Of a stretch of DNA of 64,000 bases, positions 48,366-59,110 are shown in pieces. The stretch is from Candidatus Copromonas faecavium (nom. illeg.) (GTDB lineage: Bacteria > Bacillota > Clostridia > Lachnospirales > Lachnospiraceae): contig DVGC01000038.1 in NCBI GenBank assembly GCA_018712915.1, positions 1 to 64,000 of the forward strand, given 5' to 3'. Position 1 is the stretch's first letter; every line of letters starts with the position of its first letter. The translations under genes and the position numbers were made by a program. The notes beneath the pieces are model-generated. The model worked only from the letters and a program-made list of their open reading frames with translations. It was not told the origin of the DNA and made no database searches.

Positions 48366-49544
48366 CTAATCTTCAAGCAGCAATACTGCCGCAGCCGCCA
48401 GCTTGGCCCTCGGAACCAGGGAATCTGCCATCATATATTCCCTGCTGGAATGGTTAAATTCTCCCTTGGCCCCCAGTCCGCAGATCACAGGGATTCCCTC
48501 GCTGGCCGCCAGGCTGGCATCTGACCATCCTCCGACTTTAATCGGATGAAGCTCGCCCGGATAGGAAATTTCCTGGGCCGTTTTCTTATAATGCTCAAAC
48601 AGAGCCAAAATTTTATCCGTCGTCTCCATGACGTCGCTGATGGAAGAAACAATAAGTTCCGTACTTGTCCCGTCAATGACCGTCTGTCCGCAGACAGCTT
48701 TTACATCCTCCAGAAGTTTATCCAGCCTGGGACGTTCCGTATAACGGATATCAATCTGAATCTCGCAGGATTCCGGTACCGCATTGACCGCGGTTCCTCC
48801 TGTAATCAGTCCCACGTTTAGCGAAGTCCCATGTTCCAAATCATTAAGTGCCTGAAGAGCAATCACCTTATGAGCCATTTCAAGAACAGCATTCCGGCCT
48901 TTTTCCGGAGCATTTCCCGCATGGGAACCGACACCTTTAACCCGTACCGTCAGCCGGCAGGAGCCCTTTCTTCCCACCACAATGCTGTCGCTGGGGTATC
49001 CCGTTTCAAAGTTAAAGACAGCTGCACACCCTCTGGATGCCGCCCGGAACTCGTCCGCCGCAGTTGATTCCCGGTGTCCGTTTTCCTCGTCTCCCGCAAA
49101 TGCGAACCGAATCGGCCGCTCCTCATATCCTGCCGCATTCAATGCTGCGGCCGCATACAGGGCAATGACCAGACCGGATTTCATGTCCACACATCCCGGC
49201 CCGTAAATCCGACCGTTTTCCATCTTCCATGGCATGGTTTCGATGGTTCCCTTTGGAAATACCGTATCCATATGCCCGCCGAAAAGCACCGGCTTCCCGG
49301 ATCGCCCGGTTCCCAGTTCTCCTTTCACGAAGTTTCCCTTTTTCTCCATGGCTATCACCTGAGTCTGAGCCCCCAGCTTTTTCAGCTCCTGCTCCATCAT
49401 GGCCCCCATGGCGTCGCACCCGGCCTTATCCGTATTGCCGCTTTCCTGCTTTACCAGCTTTTCCAGGAGAGACACCATCTCCTCCTGTTTGCCGTCAAGA
49501 AAAGCCACGACCCGATTTAACTGCTCCCTCTTTGCTTCATTCAT
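48366..49544 (-). CDS. M20 family metallopeptidase (glutamate carboxypeptidase/CPG2-like)
   Basis: A 392-aa zinc peptidase like carboxypeptidase G2. Motifs: LFGGHMDTVFPKG, YGPGCVDMKSGLVIAL (bridging Asp), FAGDEENGHRES (general-base Glu pair), FNFETGYPSD and a C-terminal HSSREYM. The dimerisation domain contains VGSHAGNAPEKGRNA. GGAGGAGGT lies 8 nt before ATG 49544, which decides the start. CPG2-type enzymes remove C-terminal glutamate from folates or peptides. No signal peptide is visible. Confidence 0.9.
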   Translation of the reverse strand: MNEAKREQLNRVVAFLDGKQEEMVSLLEKLVKQESGNTDKAGCDAMGAMMEQELKKLGAQTQVIAMEKKGNFVKGELGTGRSGKPVLFGGHMDTVFPKGTIETMPWKMENGRIYGPGCVDMKSGLVIALYAAAALNAAGYEERPIRFAFAGDEENGHRESTAADEFRAASRGCAAVFNFETGYPSDSIVVGRKGSCRLTVRVKGVGSHAGNAPEKGRNAVLEMAHKVIALQALNDLEHGTSLNVGLITGGTAVNAVPESCEIQIDIRYTERPRLDKLLEDVKAVCGQTVIDGTSTELIVSSISDVMETTDKILALFEHYKKTAQEISYPGELHPIKVGGWSDASLAASEGIPVICGLGAKGEFNHSSREYMMADSLVPRAKLAAAAVLLLED

Positions 49545-49614
49545 TTTGAATACCTCCTCCAATGTTCTCTGTTTCTTTCACTCTTTCCTGGTTTTCTTCC
49601 ATTCTCCGTTCCTG

Positions 49615-50607
49615 CTATATCTCCCTCTTTCTTCCGTCTGCCTGAACCTTCATTTCCCCGGTGGCCGTCTTCTTTTCCTCTAAGTGGAACTTATTCCCCT
49701 CCTCATCCTTCTTATCGTAGGACAGACTGATGCCCACAATTCCAAGAAGAATCACTGCCGTTCCAATTCCCTGCACCGTCGTGAAGGTTTCATGGAGAAG
49801 GAAAACCCCGGAAACAATTGCAATAACCGTACTGAGCGTACAAGTGGAAGCATAAACCGCAAAGGGCAGGTTGGCCGACGCATAGGTCATGGACAAAAAA
49901 GCAATGACGCAGGAACCAATTCCCATATAAAGAACCGCCACCGCAAATTCCGGGCAGGCAAGGCCTTCAAAATAAACCGGAAGCGTCCCGGCTGCTGCAC
50001 TTCTGCCAGCGGAAATCACATTAAATAAGAGAGCTCCCATACCCGTTGTAATATAAATAATTTCAAACGATGTGAAAACTGCCGATGCCCGGCGCACCAG
50101 AACCCGGTTGATGGCCACGGCCACATTGGTTCCAATAATCAGAATCAATCCGATTTTTGTCATGCCGGTCACATCCGGCTCCACCAGGTTGGCAATAAAC
50201 ACGCCGATGACGCACACCACAACAAATCCCAGCTGGCGCCTGGTGGGATACTCCTTATTAATCAGAGCTGAAAAAATCAGCATGACGATCGGCAGCATGC
50301 TGTTGTACATGGCAATCTGAGAGGTAGGTGCATACGAGGTAGAGGTTGTCTCCAGAATCTGGCTGATGGCCGGATTAAACAGGCCGCATAAAAAAATCAG
50401 GCCGATAAATCCCTTCTTATAGTTGACCTTTTTAACCCCCAGCAAAAGGATTACCGTCATCACAAGAAACCCCAGAGTAAAGCGAAAGGACAGGAATTTC
50501 ACCGTGTCCTGATCCACGACGGCCATCCCCATCCTGATAAAAAAATATCCCAACCCAAAAATCGTCTGTGCCACCACATTGGCAAGCAGCGGCTTATAGT
50601 TTTTCAT
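49615..50607 (-). CDS. EamA/DMT-superfamily transporter
   Basis: A 330-aa permease with about ten TM helices in two EamA repeats (first from about 5-135, second from about 145-290) and a charged C-terminal tail of about 35 residues. Such proteins export or import amino acids or metabolites; the substrate is unknown. GGAGGGG precedes the ATG of MKNYKPLL. It follows the CwlD-like gene with 14 bp between stop and start and precedes the CPG2-like gene. Confidence 0.9.
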   Translation of the reverse strand: MKNYKPLLANVVAQTIFGLGYFFIRMGMAVVDQDTVKFLSFRFTLGFLVMTVILLLGVKKVNYKKGFIGLIFLCGLFNPAISQILETTSTSYAPTSQIAMYNSMLPIVMLIFSALINKEYPTRRQLGFVVVCVIGVFIANLVEPDVTGMTKIGLILIIGTNVAVAINRVLVRRASAVFTSFEIIYITTGMGALLFNVISAGRSAAAGTLPVYFEGLACPEFAVAVLYMGIGSCVIAFLSMTYASANLPFAVYASTCTLSTVIAIVSGVFLLHETFTTVQGIGTAVILLGIVGISLSYDKKDEEGNKFHLEEKKTATGEMKVQADGRKREI

Positions 50608-50621
50608 TGGTAACCCCTCCA

Positions 50622-51317
50622 CTACTCTTTATTCAGGTATTCCAGTATGCCCATATGAATCGTATAGGCCATCCGGTCCTGATATTCTTCCTCCTGAAGA
50701 AGAGCCGCTTCCCTCCAGTTGCTCAAAAACCCGCACTCCACAATCACCGTGGGACACTCCGCGTGAAGCAGAAGGTAGTAGCTCTCATTGGCCTTCGCCT
50801 GTCTTCGGTTCCCCTCACCCAGTACATAACCGAACCGTTCCTGAAGAATCTCCGCCAGTTCTCTCCCCTTCTGGGAATCTGCATAATAAAAAACCTGTCC
50901 GCCGAACACGGATTCTTCGTGATAGCTGTTCTGATGAATGCTTACCGCCAGCACAGCTCCGCTTTCATTTATCAGCTCACAGCGTCTGTTCATATCTGCT
51001 GTTTTTTTTCTGGAGTCCGCCGCCGTATACAGTCCTTCGTCCGTCTCCCTGGTCATCACCACCTGAATGCCGGACTGTTCCAGATACCACTTTAACCGCC
51101 CGGCAATTTCCAGGTTGATATCCTTCTCCAGTCCGCCATTGACCGCTACCTTGCCCGGATCATTCCCTCCGTGCCCGGCATCAATTACCACAACCGGGCG
51201 GTTCTCCCCGGCAAGGACATGCTCAGAAAGGACCTGCTCCGTTCCATACCGGGACGCCAAAAACACCAGAAACAGCAGCAAAAGACCTGCAAAAGGCTCC
51301 GCCAGCCATCGTTTCAC
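50622..51317 (-). CDS. cwlD: N-acetylmuramoyl-L-alanine amidase, CwlD-like
   Basis: A 231-aa membrane-anchored amidase_3. A signal anchor (about 8-23) precedes the zinc motifs VVVIDAGHGGNDPG, Glu in GLEKDINLEIA, SIHQNSYHE and catalytic Glu in VIVECGFLSN. Size and motifs fit CwlD, which removes peptides to make muramic-lactam in the spore cortex. A related vegetative amidase cannot be excluded. Confidence 0.88.
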   Translation of the reverse strand: MKRWLAEPFAGLLLLFLVFLASRYGTEQVLSEHVLAGENRPVVVIDAGHGGNDPGKVAVNGGLEKDINLEIAGRLKWYLEQSGIQVVMTRETDEGLYTAADSRKKTADMNRRCELINESGAVLAVSIHQNSYHEESVFGGQVFYYADSQKGRELAEILQERFGYVLGEGNRRQAKANESYYLLLHAECPTVIVECGFLSNWREAALLQEEEYQDRMAYTIHMGILEYLNKE

Positions 51318-51385
51318 GCGCCATACCTCAAAACCAGCTTTCTTTTAAATATATCCGGCTCCGGCGCGAAAAAGAACCTAGCCAG

Positions 51386-53035
51386 TTAGTCCCACCGGAT
51401 GGATTCCCAGGCAGCTTCATCCTCCAGCCCCAGCTTCCAGCAGGCAACTCCCGCCAGATCATGTTCCTTAATCACATCCATCTTCTGTCTCAGTGAATCT
51501 TCCTCTTCCATCCACAGATACTGGATACCATCATCAGACGGAAGCTCACCATAATACTGTCCCAGCTCCTCCTGCCAGTACAGCTCCACATCATTTTCCT
51601 CTATCCATCGTTTGGCCGCAGATATGCCCAGCGCTCTGGAATCCACTCCCTCATCCGTTTCCGTCCAGAGTCTGGTATAGAAGGGAACGCCATTAACCAG
51701 TTTTTCCTTCGGGACATCTTTCAGCGTGTTTTCAATACCATTTTTCACAAACTCTATGGATGCTACTGAACCAGGCTCACCGCCGGCATAATGTTCGTCA
51801 TACCCCATGATAATGACATAGTCTGCGACGATTCCCTGTTCTTCTCTGTCATAAAACTCCGTTGACGCACTGGGAACATAATTATCCACGGAAAGAATAA
51901 TTCCCTCTTCACGGCAGGAAATCGAAAGTTCCCGCAGGAACTGAATATAATGGACTCCGGCCTCTTCACGGATACCCTCAAAATCCATGTTTAGGCCATC
52001 CAGGTCATACTCCCTTACGTCCTCCATCAGGCTGTTGATCAGCTTTCTCCTTGTGGAAGTGGAAGAAAGAAGCACCTCCGTCTGTACATCGCTGCTGAAA
52101 TTATCCAGAAGAGCCCATACCTGCAGTCCCATGCTGTGAGCCTTTTCCACGTATTCTTTGCTGGCCAGAGAACGGTAATTTCCCTCATTGTCTGTCAGAG
52201 AGAACCAGGTAGGCGAAATAACATTTAATCCCCCGGTTCCTGCAGCCACATTCTCCAGCTCCTGGTTGGCATCCATATTAGTCACCTGGTGCCATCCCAG
52301 AACAATCTTTTCATCCATCTTCGTGCTCTCGTAGACCGGTTCCACAAAATTCCCGGTAAATTCTCTGGTTTCTTCATTTCCCAGACGTCTGTTTTCAATA
52401 TAACCAACGAACCCGTCCGGAGTCACAACACAGGACCAGTCCTCCATCGCATTCAGAATGGTTACAGTCTGTCCTCTTGACACATTGGTCAGCACAGGAC
52501 TCTTAATTCCTCCGCGAACCCGGACAGCACCGTCTCTGCGGACAGCCGCCACTTCCCGGTTTCCCCAGTCCGTGACAAAAACGCGTTTCACCTCGTCCGC
52601 ATCAAAAGCTGAAATCTGAATGTTGGTATAATTTGCAATCAGTCCCAGTGTCAGATAAACCTCATCTTCCCGCACCAGAAGAAGAGGCGCGCCGCCGGAA
52701 CCCATGGTACTGGCGTCCGCATAAACAATCTGGTCCGGCAGCGCGTACACCAGCAGCTGTTCCCCGGCATCCCAGTAAAACCGTTTATTAATATGCGCAT
52801 TGACCCAGGAAATCGGCAGATACGTTTCTCCGCTCTCATAAATCCCAGTTGTCTCCTGCAGTTCATTATTATAAAAAAGGGCAACCTCGTTCCCCTCTAC
52901 CTTAAAGACTTCCGAAAGATCCGCCTGTTCTTTTGACGGCGTATATCTCTGAATCAAAGTAACCCCAGCGGCACCTAAGATAACCACAAAGATTAGTCCC
53001 AGAACCGCAAAAACCGGCATCGCTTTTCTCATTTG
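51386..53035 (-). CDS. GH18 glycoside hydrolase with SH3 domain (spore peptidoglycan hydrolase-like)
   Basis: A 549-aa protein. An N-terminal TM anchor (about 5-24) is followed by a copper-amine-oxidase-N-like segment (FYNNELQETTGIYESGETYLPISWV), an SH3b domain near 190-240 (VRVRGGIKSPVLTNVSRGQ) and a GH18 catalytic barrel with the DGLNMDFEG active-site motif. This architecture resembles YaaH/SleL/YdhD-type N-acetylglucosaminidases that act on spore cortex. The ATG at 53035 is chosen because it begins a clean signal anchor; its ribosome binding site is weak, and the frame stays open to 53143. Confidence 0.87.
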   Translation of the reverse strand, partial: QMRKAMPVFAVLGLIFVVILGAAGVTLIQRYTPSKEQADLSEVFKVEGNEVALFYNNELQETTGIYESGETYLPISWVNAHINKRFYWDAGEQLLVYALPDQIVYADASTMGSGGAPLLLVREDEVYLTLGLIANYTNIQISAFDADEVKRVFVTDWGNREVAAVRRDGAVRVRGGIKSPVLTNVSRGQTVTILNAMEDWSCVVTPDGFVGYIENRRLGNEETREFTGNFVEPVYESTKMDEKIVLGWHQVTNMDANQELENVAAGTGGLNVISPTWFSLTDNEGNYRSLASKEYVEKAHSMGLQVWALLDNFSSDVQTEVLLSSTSTRRKLINSLMEDVREYDLDGLNMDFEGIREEAGVHYIQFLRELSISCREEGIILSVDNYVPSASTEFYDREEQGIVADYVIIMGYDEHYAGGEPGSVASIEFVKNGIENTLKDVPKEKLVNGVPFYTRLWTETDEGVDSRALGISAAKRWIEENDVELYWQEELGQYYGELPSDDGIQYLWMEEEDSLRQKMDVIKEHDLAGVACWKLGLEDEAAWESIRWD

Positions 53036-53140
53036 TTCTCTCTTTCTTGTTCTTATTTTCCCCGGAAAGCCGGCAGACACAGCTCCCAGTGTGTAAATTG
53101 CAGCTTTCCTTCTCTCCGTCTGCTTCCCGGTTGTCACAAT

Positions 53141-53240
53141 CACGGTATGCGCACGAATTTGTGCGGTAAACTCACAAATCGGAATGCGCAGAAACCGGAA
53201 TGCGCAGGTATAATGACCACCTTGTGGTCATTATACCATA
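53141..53240. repeat. Third, diverged copy of the hairpin-rich repeat
   Basis: It shares the words GAATTTGTGCGGTAAAC, TGCGCAGGTATAATG and the closing palindrome GGTATAATGACCAC/GTGGTCATTATACC (53207-53237, perfect 14-bp arms) with the element at 17276-17474. It lies just upstream of the GH18 gene. The rest of the 342-bp gap (53241-53377) shows only a small AACAGT/ACTGTT hairpin with a plus-strand T run and no clear promoter. Confidence 0.85.
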
Positions 53241-53377
53241 TCCCGCTTCGCAATTTGTTAATTTTTTGTAACAATTCCCTTCCACTGTTATGAATTATCC
53301 GGCAGAACAATCCCTCTCAACAGTGTCTGACTGTTTTTTCATACTTCCTTTGCCAGTTTCCTTTTTCATCCAATTCT

Positions 53378-53674
53378 TTATCGTTTCTTTCTTTTCTGAG
53401 TCCGTTCACTTTGCTCTGACCTTTCATAAAGGTATACCTTGTCAAAGCGGATCTCTTTCAGGCCTCCTCCTTCTGACTGAACATAGTCTCCCATATAAAA
53501 CATTCCGTCTTCACGCACTTCAAATAAACGCTCCCATTCAACGGGGCCGGACAGTTTTCCATCCATATAAATCGGTATCCCACGCTCTGTGTACCGCTTC
53601 AGGCCATTCAAATATTTCTCTTTTTCTAGCTTCTTCTTATCTTCTGCATCTGGCATATTTTGCTCTCTCCGCAT
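53378..53674 (-). CDS. Conserved-looking hypothetical protein (98 aa)
   Basis: I do not recognise the family. The protein is hydrophilic and has no TM segment. It starts with a charged helix (EDKKKLEKEKYLNGLKRY) followed by a beta-rich middle (GIPIYMDGKLSGPVEWERLF, GMFYMGDYV) and a basic tail. A strong GGGAGG site precedes the ATG. It is 88 bp downstream of the ParA-like gene on the same strand, so it likely belongs with the kinase module. Confidence 0.75.
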   Translation of the reverse strand: MRREQNMPDAEDKKKLEKEKYLNGLKRYTERGIPIYMDGKLSGPVEWERLFEVREDGMFYMGDYVQSEGGGLKEIRFDKVYLYERSEQSERTQKRKKR

Positions 53675-53762
53675 TTTCTGCCTCCCTCCCTGTATCCGGC
53701 GGAGAAGACCTAAGAAGGATTTGTGACATGTTGCTCCTCCGCCGTGCAGACCACTGTTGGCA

Positions 53763-54374
53763 TTATTTTTCTGCGATTATCTTTCCGAAGAATTTTCCGC
53801 ATTCTTCCGTAACAGCAAACGCATCCGCTGAAAACGGAATCCGTTCTGTCCGAATCCGGTAACGTCTCGCAAACTCTCTTCTGGTTTCCTCGCTGCCAAA
53901 CACAGCCAGACTTTTCCAGCTTTTCTTTCCCGATATCCGGTTCTTCATCTCAAACTCCCGGAAACGCTCCTGCTGCCACTCGCTGAAGGATCCAATGACA
54001 AATCGACTGTCGCATCGCCAGAATTCGCCCATATTTCCTTCCTCTGCGGTGCCGAAATCAATCAAAATATCTTCGTATTTTCTCCCCAAAGCCTCTTCAA
54101 GCTCCCCAGCTCCCGCGTTCTTATAATAATCCGCCTGCAGAATCCGGCATGGCTTCTTATCCTGAATTTTTCCCGTACAAATTTCCTCCAGCCGCTCAAA
54201 ATCACCGGATGAATGAAACTCCAGCAGCGCAGCTTCTCTCCGCAGATATCCTGCCAGATAATTCAGCAGCATAATCGAAAAATGAGTGCAGCCAACACCG
54301 TGTCCGGTTCCGATAATCCCTATGAGCCTGCTCTTGGAAAAAACCGGATAAACCGTTTTCCCTTTTCCTTCCAT
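53763..54374 (-). CDS. Degenerate ParA/MinD-like P-loop protein
   Basis: A 203-aa protein. After a short N-terminus comes IIGTGHGVGCTHFSIMLLNYL (about 20-40), a deviant Walker A loop in which the usual lysine is Cys; DILIDFGTAEEGN looks like the Walker B strand. The fold thus resembles SIMIBI ATPases such as ParA or TadZ, but nucleotide hydrolysis is doubtful. The same loop design recurs in the C-terminal half of the kinase encoded upstream. Its start overlaps that gene by 55 bp, so translation is coupled. Function unknown. Confidence 0.75.
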   Translation of the reverse strand: MEGKGKTVYPVFSKSRLIGIIGTGHGVGCTHFSIMLLNYLAGYLRREAALLEFHSSGDFERLEEICTGKIQDKKPCRILQADYYKNAGAGELEEALGRKYEDILIDFGTAEEGNMGEFWRCDSRFVIGSFSEWQQERFREFEMKNRISGKKSWKSLAVFGSEETRREFARRYRIRTERIPFSADAFAVTEECGKFFGKIIAEK

Positions 54375-55717
54375 CTGTCTTCCCCCGTTCCGAGCAACAT
54401 CAGCTTTCCGAAACAGGCCCCGGCCGTCTTATTTCTCTGAAACGGATTGGAGAAAAAGGGAAGGAAGCAGCACGGAAGTTCTTTCAGATCTTCCGGAAGC
54501 CTCAACCGGGCACCGCCTGACATATGGTTAAAAAGAAGAATGACTGTTCCCTGCCGCTTTAAGCTCCGAGCAGCCTGCAGGGACGCATCATTTTCCCACC
54601 ATTTTCCTCCGCATACAAGCACGATAAAATCTGCTTCCGGCAGGCGGCATCCCGTCTGCCACTGGCAGCCCGTATCTTTTATTATGACTGGAAAATAAAG
54701 ATATGGCAGCTTAACCGCTTCGCCATAATAAGGACGGATGTTGGTACATCCAAAATGATATACGCCGGATGCGTCCGCAGAAAGCCCCGCTGTTTTCGCA
54801 AGGACCCGGACGGTATCCGTATCGTACGCTTCTTGATACAACGCAGGACACCCATTTCGGGTTAAGAAATTTGACATGCCAAAAGCCGCATGGGTTGTTC
54901 CGATTCCCGGCTTGGCTCCGGCAAAAATAATGACTCGAGATTCTATTGCATGTTCTTTTGATATGAGATCCAACAGTTCCTGCAGTACACCTTCTACCTC
55001 GTCTGCACTCTGATACCGCTCCTCTTTCCGTCTGGCCATACAGCTGCGGATGATTCGATCCATCTCTCTGGTTCCTCCGGAACGGCTGTAATCAGGATCT
55101 TCTCCCGGCGGCTCTCCTCTGAGCATAAAGTACAAAAGAGCACCGATGGCATAGACATCCGTACGGCAATCCAGCGGCTCTCCCTTTCTCTGCTCAGGCG
55201 CCGCAAAGCCCAGCGTCCCATAGCGTTCTCCGGACTCTGCCACATCCGCCGCATACTGTGCATGATCAAAGTCAATCAAACGAATGATCGTTTCGTTTAC
55301 CAGCAGATTCTTCGGCTGTAAATCAAGGTATAAAATAGGATTCTCTGCTGAATTCATGAATTGAATAAGACGGCATATCTGAATGCCAAAAAGAGCTGCC
55401 GTTTTCACGGGCAGACCGCCAAGGCGTTTTACCATGGCGTATAAAGACTCGCCTTCCAGATATTCTTCGATAAGATAGCTGTAAGCTTCATCCTCCTCCA
55501 GATCATACACAAGAGGAATTCCCGGATGCCGCAGCGTTTTTAAGAACAGCGCTTCCTTTTTAAAAGAGTCATAATCCGACATCTTTTTAGGAACAATCTT
55601 GACCGCCCGAAGCTCATCCAACTCCATATGACAGGCCAAATATACGGTTCCGGAACGCCCGCTGCCAAGCTTCCTGTACAGACGATATTTACCAAACAGA
55701 ACGTGTTCCTCCGACAT
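54320..55717 (-). CDS. Serine/threonine protein kinase fused to a ParA-like P-loop domain
   Basis: A 465-aa cytoplasmic protein. Residues 1 to about 240 form a Hanks-type kinase: LGSGRSGTVYLA glycine loop, Lys40 in AVKIV, catalytic loop YLDLQPKN (130-137, HRD changed to YLD), metal motif DFD (149-151, not DFG) and APEQ (173-176). From about 250 the protein is a P-loop domain with FAGAKPGIGTTHAAF, the Walker lysine replaced by Thr. No PASTA or TM segment, unlike PknB/PrkC. GGGAGGT lies 4 nt before the ATG. Likely a signalling partner of the overlapping ParA-like gene. Confidence 0.85.
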   Translation of the reverse strand: MSEEHVLFGKYRLYRKLGSGRSGTVYLACHMELDELRAVKIVPKKMSDYDSFKKEALFLKTLRHPGIPLVYDLEEDEAYSYLIEEYLEGESLYAMVKRLGGLPVKTAALFGIQICRLIQFMNSAENPILYLDLQPKNLLVNETIIRLIDFDHAQYAADVAESGERYGTLGFAAPEQRKGEPLDCRTDVYAIGALLYFMLRGEPPGEDPDYSRSGGTREMDRIIRSCMARRKEERYQSADEVEGVLQELLDLISKEHAIESRVIIFAGAKPGIGTTHAAFGMSNFLTRNGCPALYQEAYDTDTVRVLAKTAGLSADASGVYHFGCTNIRPYYGEAVKLPYLYFPVIIKDTGCQWQTGCRLPEADFIVLVCGGKWWENDASLQAARSLKRQGTVILLFNHMSGGARLRLPEDLKELPCCFLPFFSNPFQRNKTAGACFGKLMLLGTGEDRWKEKGKRFIRFFPRAGS

Positions 55718-55751
55718 AACACCTCCCTTCGGCAATACAATCTCTGGTAAC

Positions 55752-55780
55752 ATTGTAATATAAACAGCCTGCTTTTACAA
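55752..55780 (-). promoter_or_regulatory. Candidate promoter for the kinase operon
   Basis: Minus-strand TTGTAA and TACAAT with 17 bp between, about 35 bp before the kinase start. It shares the 376-bp divergent region with the mecA promoter; the middle (55800-55980) shows nothing else clear. Confidence 0.55.
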
Positions 55781-55984
55781 CCGGATTCTGCAAAAAATGA
55801 CAGGATTTTTTCCTTTTCAAAAAATTATCGTTTCTGTTCCTGTTCTTCCCGGATTGAATGCGTTTCCGGCATCATATCCCGGCGTTGCCGGATACCATAA
55901 AATTTTCCTATTCCCGCAGGAAATCCTCTCCATTGCCCATCCGGCAGGATTTCCTTAAATTTTTAAGAATTTTATTACATATCG

Positions 55985-56014
55985 TTGCAAAACCGGAATA
56001 GGATATAGTATATT
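55985..56014 (+). promoter_or_regulatory. Candidate promoter for mecA
   Basis: TTGCAA and TATATT are 18 bp apart, 80 bp before the mecA start, within a TATAGTATATTATA-rich stretch. Confidence 0.6.
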
Positions 56015-56093
56015 ATAGGCGTAAAAGTGTATCTTTCCGGCACAGCTCAGAATGCGTTTCTATCGCCGGCATAAAAAGTCAGGAAGGGATATC

Positions 56094-56837
56094 ATGAGAA
56101 TAGAGCGAATCAATGAAAATCAGATTCGATGCACCCTTAGCAATTTTGACTTAAGCGTGCGGAATCTTAATTTAAGTGAACTGGCATACGGAAGTGAAAA
56201 AGCAAGAAATCTGTTTCGGGAAATGATTCAGCGGGCTTCCAATGAAGTAGGGTTTGAGGCGGAAGACATCCCGCTGATGGTGGAGGCCATTCCCCTCGCA
56301 AATGAAAGCGTCATGCTGATTATTACTAAAATAGAAGATCCGGAAGAACTGGATACCCGCTTTTCCAAATTTTCCCCTGTGGACGAAGAAGAAGACGGTA
56401 CCTGGAACAATCTGGCCACGGAGCTTCTGGAAGGGGCAGAAAGCCTGCTGAGTCTCCTTGGGAATCAGGAAAAATCGGACAAGACCCGGACAGACACCGA
56501 TGTCCAGGAAGAACAGGCAAAAGAAAGTTCCAAGCCTGCGCCGCCAGTCGTCCGGATTTATCAGTTTGAAACTCTGGATCAGGTATGCGAAGCGGCCAGA
56601 GAAACCGGTGAATCCTTCACCGGAACCAGCGTACTTTACAAAAAGCCATCCACCGGCCGTTATTACCTGGTACTGAAAAAAGGAGATTCTGATGAGCTTT
56701 CTTTTAACAGAACCTGCAATATCCTGGCCGAATTTGGAACCCGGATTAAAGGAGATTTGGCCTCGGAAGCTTATTACGCGGAACATTTTGAACTGATTGT
56801 AAAGAAAAATGCCCTGGGTGCTTTATCCAGCCTGTAA
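56094..56837 (+). CDS. mecA: MecA adaptor protein
   Basis: Adaptor of ClpC of 247 aa that delivers substrates (ComK in Bacillus) for degradation. The N-terminal domain MRIERINENQIRCTLSNFDL and the C-terminal ClpC-binding domain (YQFETLDQVCEAARETG, LYKKPSTGRYYLVL, ILAEFGTRI) are separated by an acidic linker. The ATG of MRIERIN is preferred (GGAAGGGAT upstream) over an ATG 14 codons earlier. It stands alone between promoter and terminator. Confidence 0.94.
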   Translation: MRIERINENQIRCTLSNFDLSVRNLNLSELAYGSEKARNLFREMIQRASNEVGFEAEDIPLMVEAIPLANESVMLIITKIEDPEELDTRFSKFSPVDEEEDGTWNNLATELLEGAESLLSLLGNQEKSDKTRTDTDVQEEQAKESSKPAPPVVRIYQFETLDQVCEAARETGESFTGTSVLYKKPSTGRYYLVLKKGDSDELSFNRTCNILAEFGTRIKGDLASEAYYAEHFELIVKKNALGALSSL

Positions 56838-56907
56838 TCGTAATTCGAAGGCAGAGTATTTACGCCTGCTTTCTCATAAGCCAGCAAAAACAAACATCAA
56901 AGATACA

Positions 56908-56947
56908 GAAACGGCTGTCAGCTAAAGCTCTGACAGCCGTTTCCTTT
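56908..56947 (+). terminator. Terminator after mecA
   Basis: Perfect 14-bp arms GAAACGGCTGTCAG and CTGACAGCCGTTTC around an 8-nt loop, followed by CTTT. The A/T flanks could let it serve the convergent DUF1858 gene too. Confidence 0.85.
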
Positions 56948-56976
56948 ATGGAAAGATTTCCTCTTTCACATGATAT

Positions 56977-57183
56977 TTATGCGTTTTTCTGCTCCAGATA
57001 TTCATTAATCGCGCCTACAAGTCTGTCGCAGTCAATACCGTGAACCATACTGGCCTCTTCCAGAGACTCCATCTGAGAACCGGGTCAGCCAATGCAATGC
57101 ATTCCTGCTCCCATCAAAATCTCTGCCATATTTTCATCTACCCTAAGCAGTTCACCGATAAGCATGTCCTTAGAAATCTGCAT
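56977..57183 (-). CDS. DUF1858/hybrid-cluster-associated redox protein with in-frame UGA (candidate selenoprotein)
   Basis: The frame starts at ATG 57183 (GGAGG 7 nt upstream) and encodes [16 protein letters not shown] and GMHCIG up to codon 32. Codon 33 is TGA (57085-57087). Translation then continues in the same frame as [20 protein letters not shown] and on to TAA at 56977, 68 aa in all. DUF1858 proteins typically have GMHCxGCPxSQxETLEEA, so the TGA stands exactly at the second Cys of CxxC, giving CxxU if read as selenocysteine. A hairpin with a GG-containing apical loop follows the TGA. A plain nonsense mutation (TGC to TGA) or a sequencing error remains possible. Confidence 0.75.
57052..57081 (-). 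promoter_or_regulatory. Possible bacterial SECIS-like hairpin
   Basis: Beginning 4 nt after the UGA the mRNA can fold with a 4-bp upper stem CAGA/UCUG, an apical loop UGGAGUC, and a lower, bulged stem closed by GG/CC. Loop guanines lie 15-16 nt past the UGA, near the short end of the spacing known for bacterial SECIS elements. Folded by eye only. Confidence 0.4.
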
Positions 57184-57222
57184 GCCAAATCCTCCTTTCG
57201 TCCATTCATACGGCATATCGAG

Positions 57223-57251
57223 AGTATAATACTTTTTTGTCAACTTGACAA
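57223..57251 (-). promoter_or_regulatory. Promoter for the DUF1858 gene
   Basis: Minus-strand TTGTCA and TATACT separated by 17 bp, about 40 bp before the start codon. An active-looking promoter and ribosome binding site argue that the UGA-containing gene is expressed. Confidence 0.75.
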
Positions 57252-57389
57252 GGGGCTTTCTGATTCTCGGCATTTTTTGACATTCCAGACATATTCTGGT
57301 TTCATCCTGTAAGGCTCTGCCTTTTTCCCAGTCCGCAAAAAAGCAGACAAATTTTGTCAATATCTCCTTTCGTTTCTTTAAAATACCAC

Positions 57390-57418
57390 TTGAATAATTC
57401 TCCCCTTTATTATAGAAT
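57390..57418 (+). promoter_or_regulatory. Promoter for the ferredoxin gene
   Basis: TTGAAT and TAGAAT are 17 bp apart, 66 bp before the ferredoxin start. Together with the divergent DUF1858 promoter it accounts for most of the 300-bp region 57184-57483. Confidence 0.6.
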
Positions 57419-57483
57419 GAAGGAAGCACAGGAAGGGCATGTTTTGCTCTCTGCTGCAACAAAAATTAAAGGAGGTAACTATC

Positions 57484-57654
57484 ATGGCATATGTAATTAA
57501 CGATACTTGCGTAAGCTGCGGTTCCTGCGCAGGCGAATGTCCGGTAAACGCTATTTCCCAGGGAGATGGCAAATACGAGATCGATGCAGATGCTTGCATC
57601 AGCTGCGGAACATGTGCTGGTGTCTGTCCGACAGGCGCGATCAGCGAGGGCTAA
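57484..57654 (+). CDS. 2[4Fe-4S] ferredoxin, clostridial type
   Basis: A 56-aa low-potential electron carrier. Two cluster-binding motifs CVSCGSCAGECP and CISCGTCAGVCP are spaced as in Clostridium pasteurianum ferredoxin. AGGAGGT precedes the ATG. It probably serves pyruvate:ferredoxin oxidoreductase, hydrogenase and other anaerobic redox enzymes. Monocistronic, with a promoter upstream and a terminator downstream. Confidence 0.97.
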   Translation: MAYVINDTCVSCGSCAGECPVNAISQGDGKYEIDADACISCGTCAGVCPTGAISEG

Positions 57655-57748
57655 TTCCATACATAAAAGGATTTTTACTTTTTATGTATCCGTCCATCAA
57701 ACGGGATGATACCGTTTGAATCGGAAAATTCTGCAGAATTTCCTGAAC

Positions 57749-57790
57749 AAAAGCCGACAGAGAATCTTCGGATACTCTGCCGGTTTTTTG
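57749..57790 (+). terminator. Terminator downstream of the ferredoxin gene
   Basis: Arms CCGACAGAG and CTCTGCCGG (one mismatch) around a 12-nt loop, then TTTTTT. Two smaller hairpins lie before it: ATACATAAAA/TTTTATGTAT at about 57659-57692 and TCAAACGG/CCGTTTGA at about 57698-57721. These fill the first half of the 328-bp gap before the PfkB kinase gene. Confidence 0.75.
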
Positions 57791-57913
57791 TGTTCCTTGT
57801 CCTGTTCATCCATCTGTTCTGCGTCATATTCTCCGATTGCTTGTCTATTTTTCCATAGAACAGGCAATCCGAATGCTCCGGCACCTATCTTTTACCAAAA
57901 TTTTACGTTTTAT

Positions 57914-57943
57914 TTGACAAACCTCGACAAAATGTTATATGCT
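57914..57943 (+). promoter_or_regulatory. Promoter for the PfkB-family kinase gene
   Basis: Perfect TTGACA, an 18-bp spacer and TATGCT, about 40 bp before the start codon. Confidence 0.7.
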
Positions 57944-57982
57944 TATGCTGAATAATGAATACACGTTGGGGGATGGGAAAGT

Positions 57983-59110
57983 ATGACGGATATGGATATT
58001 ATCTGCATCGGCGCTATCAATTACGATTATATGTTCCACTGCACGGGAGAAGATCTGAGAATCAACGAAATCAGTTCAGGTGATGAGAAACTCAGCAATC
58101 CCATCTCAGAAGTGGAGGATGATATTTCTGAACTGATTCGTAAAGATCGTCCGTATACGACTCAGATCGGCGGATCTGCCTTTATTACCTTAAAAGTAAT
58201 CAAGCATATCCTTCCGCATCTGAAGGCAGCCTATGTGGGTGTCTGCGGAACGCCCAACGCTTTTGATTTCCGCTATGGAAAAAGCAATAATCTCAAAGAA
58301 GAACTTGCCCATCTGGATAATCGGGAATGGCTGTTTACCACAGAAGACCGTTTTGAAGATCTTTATTCCCGCACCATCGCAAAGTCTGTTGTGCGCCTTT
58401 ATAACCATACCAGAAACTGCATCAAAATCGCCCCCTGCGCCAACAACACCCTCCTTGGCCGGATTCAGGAAAAAGAGGAGCGGACCGGAGAATCGTTCTC
58501 TGAGTATCTGTCCCGTGCCCGCTGGATCCACCTGTCTTCCCTTTCCGACTTCAATCAGTTTGAAGTCATTATGCGGTATGTCATTCAGGCCAAGGCATTA
58601 AATCCCATGTTAAAAATCAGTATGGATCCAGGATTTGAATACACTTCCCTGCGGCGGGAACGGCTCATGCCTCTGGTTTCCAATACGGACTACATCTTTT
58701 TAAACAAATCCGAAAAGCGTAATCTGGGCCTGAACGAAAGAAGCGCCCGTCCATTATACCGGAATCTTCGGGAATATTTTACGGCCATCAATCCATCTCC
58801 GGACAGGACCTTAATTATCAAGCATGATGACCGCCACGAGCTGCTTCGTTTTCTGGATAATAAGTGCCATATCCGTACCATCCGCCACCAAAAGCTGTAT
58901 CAGTATCAGCTTAACAACGATACCGGCGCCGGGGATTCCTTTGCCGGAGGTTTTATCAGCGGTATGTTGGATGAGCGCATCAACAACGATATCGCCGGAC
59001 CAATCCAGCTTGGCGTTCTGGCAGCCAAAGGCAGAATGCGCAGCTTTGATCATGAAAATCCCTATCTGAATATCCAGAAACTTACCGATGCATTTTTTGC
59101 ATCTCTTTAA
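57983..59110 (+). CDS. PfkB-family carbohydrate kinase
   Basis: A 375-aa ribokinase-like enzyme. The N-terminus MDIICIGAINYDYMF, the glycine pair in TQIGGSAFITLK and the second PfkB signature NDTGAGDSFAGGFISGM with the catalytic Asp are clear. An unusually charged insert (about 25-50) follows the first strand. The substrate (sugar, nucleoside or other alcohol) cannot be told. GGATGGG precedes the ATG; promoter and terminator make it a single-gene unit. Confidence 0.88.
   Translation: MTDMDIICIGAINYDYMFHCTGEDLRINEISSGDEKLSNPISEVEDDISELIRKDRPYTTQIGGSAFITLKVIKHILPHLKAAYVGVCGTPNAFDFRYGKSNNLKEELAHLDNREWLFTTEDRFEDLYSRTIAKSVVRLYNHTRNCIKIAPCANNTLLGRIQEKEERTGESFSEYLSRARWIHLSSLSDFNQFEVIMRYVIQAKALNPMLKISMDPGFEYTSLRRERLMPLVSNTDYIFLNKSEKRNLGLNERSARPLYRNLREYFTAINPSPDRTLIIKHDDRHELLRFLDNKCHIRTIRHQKLYQYQLNNDTGAGDSFAGGFISGMLDERINNDIAGPIQLGVLAAKGRMRSFDHENPYLNIQKLTDAFFASL

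Follow-up and report, generated by a model that had tools for sequence, protein, structure and literature searches.

A kinase–P-loop fusion and its free P-loop partner as the probable control module of a Tad-like machine, apparently stranded in a Lachnospiraceae genome

Two overlapping genes of Candidatus Copromonas faecavium (nom. illeg.), one encoding a soluble Hanks-type kinase fused to a degenerate P-loop domain and the other a free protein of the same P-loop type, probably make up a cytoplasmic module that controls and positions a Tad-like envelope machine resembling a type IVc pilus, here called Tad2, and the copy described here appears to be stranded. Both genes lie in the window, the 64,000-nucleotide stretch of DNA that was analyzed. 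The model draws on homology, operon linkage in other genomes, complementarity between the halves of a split locus, the absent Walker lysine and conservation, and from these we infer the biochemical roles of the two proteins.

The fusion (P0001, 465 aa) is encoded on the minus strand at 54320..55717, beginning with an ATG at 55717 that is preceded by the Shine-Dalgarno sequence AAGGGAGGTG, and combines a kinase at residues ~10-250 with a degenerate, predicted SIMIBI-like P-loop domain at ~258-450. The stand-alone P-loop protein (P0002, 203 aa), likewise degenerate and apparently SIMIBI-like, follows on the same strand at 53763..54374 with the Shine-Dalgarno sequence GGGGGAAG, and the coordinates of the two genes agree with the 55 bp overlap reported in an earlier, sequence-only reading of this region. 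A third minus-strand gene, P0003 (53378..53674, 98 aa), belongs to a conserved family with the motif FYMxDYVxDExGxLKEIRFDxVY, and the ribosome-binding sites of all three ORFs are good. Farther along the minus strand are genes for a membrane-anchored SH3/GH18 peptidoglycan-hydrolase-like protein (51386..53032; PF00704 2.7e-23, PF08239 2.4e-7) and a CwlD-like N-acetylmuramoyl-L-alanine amidase of the Amidase_3 type (50622..51317; PF01520 1e-45), neighbors that we do not claim as components, and on the other side of the fusion the divergent gene for MecA (56052..56837, plus strand; PF05389 1.7e-68) marks the opposite edge of what we treat below as an insertion site.

The kinase domain of the fusion is unambiguous, with Pkinase (PF00069) matching at 4.8e-35 in a profile search, and the protein is soluble, having no membrane segment (maximum 19-residue hydropathy 1.19). 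The P-loop domains of P0001 and P0002 are homologous in a profile-profile comparison (E 1.8e-26), and the earlier description of a soluble Hanks-type kinase fused to a P-loop domain, beside a stand-alone version of that domain, holds on all of these points. K39 (the VAIK Lys), E54 (the C-helix Glu), D131 (the catalytic Asp) and D148 (the Mg-binding Asp of DFG) are conserved, and the catalytic-loop lysine and the DFG glycine are replaced, in the sequences DLQPKN and DFD. Kinases of the window's clade have DLQP or DIQP in place of DLKP, and most have DFD or DFN, not DFG; orthologs from Tad2-positive genomes have DFG (DLG in L125) and mostly DLKP. The domain is of the same broad family as that of the PASTA-type Hanks kinases PrkC and Stk1 (NF033483, 130.7 bits), but unlike these proteins P0001 has neither a membrane segment nor PASTA repeats, carries a C-terminal P-loop domain and scores far under the curated NF033483 cut-off of 450 bits, the match stopping at residue 249.

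No Pfam family scored above cut-off in the P-loop parts of P0001 or P0002, and the P-loop sequence profile gave weak matches, the best of them to SRP/ParA/BcsQ/FleN. A structure model of P0002, built from three sequences and of medium confidence (pLDDT 61), returned HypB, ParA, FlhG, BcsQ and Ffh as its top Foldseek matches at E values of about 1e-5, all of them SIMIBI NTPases, and MinD was also among the matches; a model of the full fusion, also from three sequences, reached a pLDDT of 37 and was set aside. Both P-loop domains look SIMIBI, of the MinD/ParA-like kind. Among the aligned stand-alone P-loop proteins G22, G28, T30, D106 (Walker-B-like) and W133 are invariant, and the Walker A lysine of the deviant motif KGGxGK[S/T] is absent from every one of them and from every aligned fusion. 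The window's P-loops thus share a SIMIBI-like fold and a Walker-B-like Asp with the TadZ/CpaE and MinD/ParA ATPases, and the P-loop genes of relatives, as with TadZ/CpaE, accompany genes for a TadA-like ATPase and a CpaB-like SAF protein, but the homologs lack the Walker A lysine, the window proteins lack a receiver domain and one copy is fused to a kinase. The N-terminal TadZ-like receiver domain (PF21194), present in the genome's own TadZ, was not found in P0001 or P0002. Where a comparison of the fold with TadZ, MinD and ParA had been proposed, the P0002 model matches the ParA/MinD class, but an identification as TadZ was rejected on a weak profile comparison (probability 42%). Any likening of the P-loop protein to a positioning platform could at most be an analogy; we do not assign it as a member of ParA or TadZ.

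The operon context of the fusion in another clostridial family points to a Tad-like machine. In four genomes of that family (L123, L124, L125 and L127) an operon opens with a complete kinase–P-loop fusion of 470-479 aa and continues with SAF, P-loop, ParA-like, TadA-like and TadBC-like genes, the fusion and SAF genes overlapping by 4 bp in L123. Together with the SIMIBI-looking fold, these operons bear out the ParA/TadZ flavor that had been noticed in the P-loop domains, but the accompanying impression that pilus genes are irrelevant is not supported. SAF proteins include CpaB/RcpC, which in Tad pili is an envelope component. A paper devoted to RcpC is PMC12307814. On Paenibacillus and Alkalihalophilus plasmids a P-loop homolog is followed by SAF, two small proteins (one of them ParA/BcsQ-like) and an ATPase annotated as TadA or T2SS/T4P/T4SS, and members of the P-loop family are found in conjugative-element loci as well, several of which continue with SAF, small P-loop or ParA-like proteins and a TadA-like ATPase. 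Four conjugative-element-like loci with VirD4/VirB4-like genes (L078, L079, L085 and L130) encode proteins of ~330-380 aa with an N-terminal extension and a degenerate P-loop, and L079 additionally carries SAF, ParA-like and TadA-like genes.

Tad2 shares TadA-like, TadBC-like, CpaB-like (SAF) and ParA-like genes with canonical Tad/Flp (type IVc) pilus loci, and pilin-like small membrane proteins were seen at the Tad2 locus. It differs from them in its very divergent motor, which matches PF00437 only below cut-off, in the kinase fusion that heads the operon in one family, and in the frequent division of its genes between two chromosomal sites in Lachnospiraceae; nor was it found in the window's genome.

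For comparison within the family, Tad2 was defined as a Tad-like locus detected by a TadA-like ATPase profile across 200 genomes. Homologs of the P-loop protein are present in 56/200 of these genomes by single-sequence search and in 65/200 by profile, and Tad2 is present in 28/200, of which 27 are P-loop-positive (Fisher p 1.6e-14, kinship ignored). Cassettes verified by position occur in 24/27 Tad2 genomes against 28/173 others (p 1.2e-13, kinship again ignored), a count that leaves out G015, whose Tad2 match is partial. A test on phylogenetically independent pairs yielded about 2 concordant and 0 contrary (p about 0.5), too few pairs for the test to have power. In about 15 genomes the interval from the P-loop gene to GH18 contains a gene with an SAF domain. 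Where SAF sits in the cassette (n=15), 14 genomes have Tad2 on another contig, and none of the ten Tad2 loci displayed from this group contains SAF; conversely, the cassette is without SAF wherever the SAF gene sits in the Tad2 locus. G099 has both arrangements, with two Tad2 loci, one carrying SAF and one without it. Because the SAF gene is found in either the cassette or the Tad2 locus, the two look like parts of one split machine. Tad2 is absent from 38/65 P-loop-positive genomes, however, so the pair must act without Tad2 or be lost slowly.

Neither the Tad2 ATPase, sought by profile, nor SAF was detected in the window's own genome, which is 92.6% complete, or in the twelve nearest genera of the tree, which retain the kinase/P-loop pair. 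Two weak T2SSE matches in this genome, considered as candidates for a Tad2 motor, are a RecD2-like helicase and SpoIIIAA. Both cassette genes are under purifying selection, with dN/dS against close relatives of 0.12-0.17 for the fusion and 0.07-0.15 for the P-loop protein and similar values for flanking genes. Since the Tad2 motor and SAF were not found, yet the pair is under purifying selection with a changed kinase active site, the copy in the window would be a stranded controller, and this forms part of the explanation that we consider probable.

A narrower form of that explanation would have the window copy rewired to the canonical Tad locus, for instance by phosphorylating a protein that is read by the DUF6382-FHA protein. 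Such a locus exists in the genome (L037; G000 contig C23:94000-113000), with genes for a prepilin peptidase-like protein, TadZ, CpaF, TadB/C-like proteins, a DUF5702 protein and the DUF6382-FHA protein, and the earlier remark that no pilus genes are nearby is true of the window but not of the genome as a whole. The canonical CpaF motor is also retained in 13/13 Tad2-negative clade members tested, which would suit such rewiring. We nevertheless think it somewhat unlikely in this specific form. The canonical locus already has its own TadZ, and DUF6382 occurs in 192/200 family genomes with or without the cassette; with canonical Tad near universal, its profile against that of the cassette is uninformative.

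If the pair instead controls peptidoglycan remodeling or sporulation, its targets for positioning or phosphorylation would be the GH18 protein and the CwlD-like amidase encoded downstream. The genome does encode SpoIIIAA, and the gene order mecA (divergent), fusion, P-loop protein, (SAF), (P0003), GH18, amidase, SUA5 is kept across the family even at 22-30% identity. This synteny, however, also takes in SUA5 and other housekeeping genes, and most relatives have GH18, amidase, P0003 and MecA as a group but no cassette. The GH18 gene is present in 180/200 family genomes, mostly without the cassette, and 20 GH18 neighborhoods from cassette-free genomes contain no kinase or P-loop homolog; in these the P0003 family adjoins GH18 in 16/20, most have MecA close by, and the amidase stays beside GH18. 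Because that block exists without the cassette in most relatives, a single ancestral insertion site can account for the adjacency of the kinase to GH18 and the amidase; the kinase/P-loop pair either was inserted separately or has survived repeated losses. In addition, the fusion-headed Tad-like operons of the other family (L123, L124, L125 and L127) are without GH18, amidase, P0003 or MecA. Control of peptidoglycan or sporulation is therefore improbable as the role of the pair.

The same neighborhoods separate the three genes that had been read as one coupled unit. A close look at 41 loci found the fusion in 41/41, the stand-alone P-loop protein in 39/41 and the P0003 family in 28/41. The refuting pattern named earlier, three genes unlinked in most relatives, is thus seen only in part: the kinase and P-loop genes are nearly always linked, but P0003, not found in 13/41 loci, is linked to GH18 instead; since it adjoins GH18 in 16/20 cassette-free relatives, we place it with the GH18 block, outside the kinase unit. 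A few local features of this region may be recorded here. In L071 (G083) the locus is rearranged, with mecA adjoining GH18 and the kinase/P-loop pair inverted alongside. In close relatives of the window (L041-L046) a gene of ~480 aa with no assigned function recurs after GH18 and before the amidase, and it is absent from the window. Between P0003 and GH18, at 53207-53237 of the window, lies a perfect 14-bp inverted repeat, GGTATAATGACCAC-CTT-GTGGTCATTATACC, whose core has 7 perfect copies and 1 with 2 mismatches in the genome and lies on the margin of a longer dispersed repeat; Rfam gave no matches over 49000-58000.

Also improbable is an independent, stand-alone signaling pathway unrelated to pili, as first proposed for these genes. 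It would fit a window without pilus genes in a genome where Tad2 was not found, but it is at odds with the Tad-like operon linkage in another family, the complementary placement of SAF and the co-occurrence with Tad2. The least likely reading is that Tad2 loss left the copy behind as a pseudokinase, a relic in decay, which would suit the missing Walker lysine and the clade's substituted catalytic-loop lysine and DFG glycine but not the dN/dS of 0.07-0.17, near that of flanking genes, the retention of the VAIK lysine, C-helix Glu, catalytic Asp and Mg-binding Asp, the continued presence of the pair in the clade members examined, or the fact that Tad2-positive homologs also lack the Walker lysine, so that its absence does not track Tad2 loss.

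We therefore return to the Tad2 controller. On this reading, the likeliest, the pair would serve a Tad-like machine as a module for positioning or assembly that is linked to phosphorylation, and it would now be stranded and perhaps put to new use. The P-loop domains would form a MinD/ParA/TadZ-like platform that no longer hydrolyzes nucleotide in the normal way, and this platform would recruit the kinase to the CpaB-like SAF protein and the TadA-like motor, where the kinase may phosphorylate a component of the machine and so switch its assembly or activity. The window copy would most plausibly act for the canonical Tad pilus that the genome still has, or in some other envelope process, canonical Tad being the first candidate target. 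More tentatively, these genes could represent an undescribed kinase-controlled Tad-like machine whose controller and motor occupy different chromosomal sites, and whose controller, after repeated loss of the motor, was retained and adapted, with an altered kinase active site, to a different envelope task.

For several Gram-positive secretion machines, control by phosphorylation has been proposed. The nearest prior art is the T7SS variants T7SSc-j of Clostridia (PMC11217815), in which a secretion machine is linked to kinases, DUF6382-FHA proteins and the TadZ-like ATPase TsfV; the kinases there are membrane proteins encoded next to EssC and WXG100 genes. Unlike these systems, the module here has no recognized EssC or WXG100 neighbors, no EssC-type ATPase or WXG100 gene being recognized by eye among the window ORFs, and the part of PMC11217815 consulted reports no kinase–P-loop fusion. 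The open-license papers that we searched contained no description of the kinase/P-loop set, in line with the earlier statement that no described pathway with it is known, nor of a kinase fused to a MinD/ParA-like positioning domain heading a pilus-like operon; a description elsewhere is possible.

If the Tad2 model is correct, it would provide a testable switch for a surface machine in Lachnospiraceae, which are major gut commensals, and would account for two genes that are widely conserved as a pair but lack an annotated function. The current role of the retained controller would then be open to experiment in a lineage that seems to have lost the motor.
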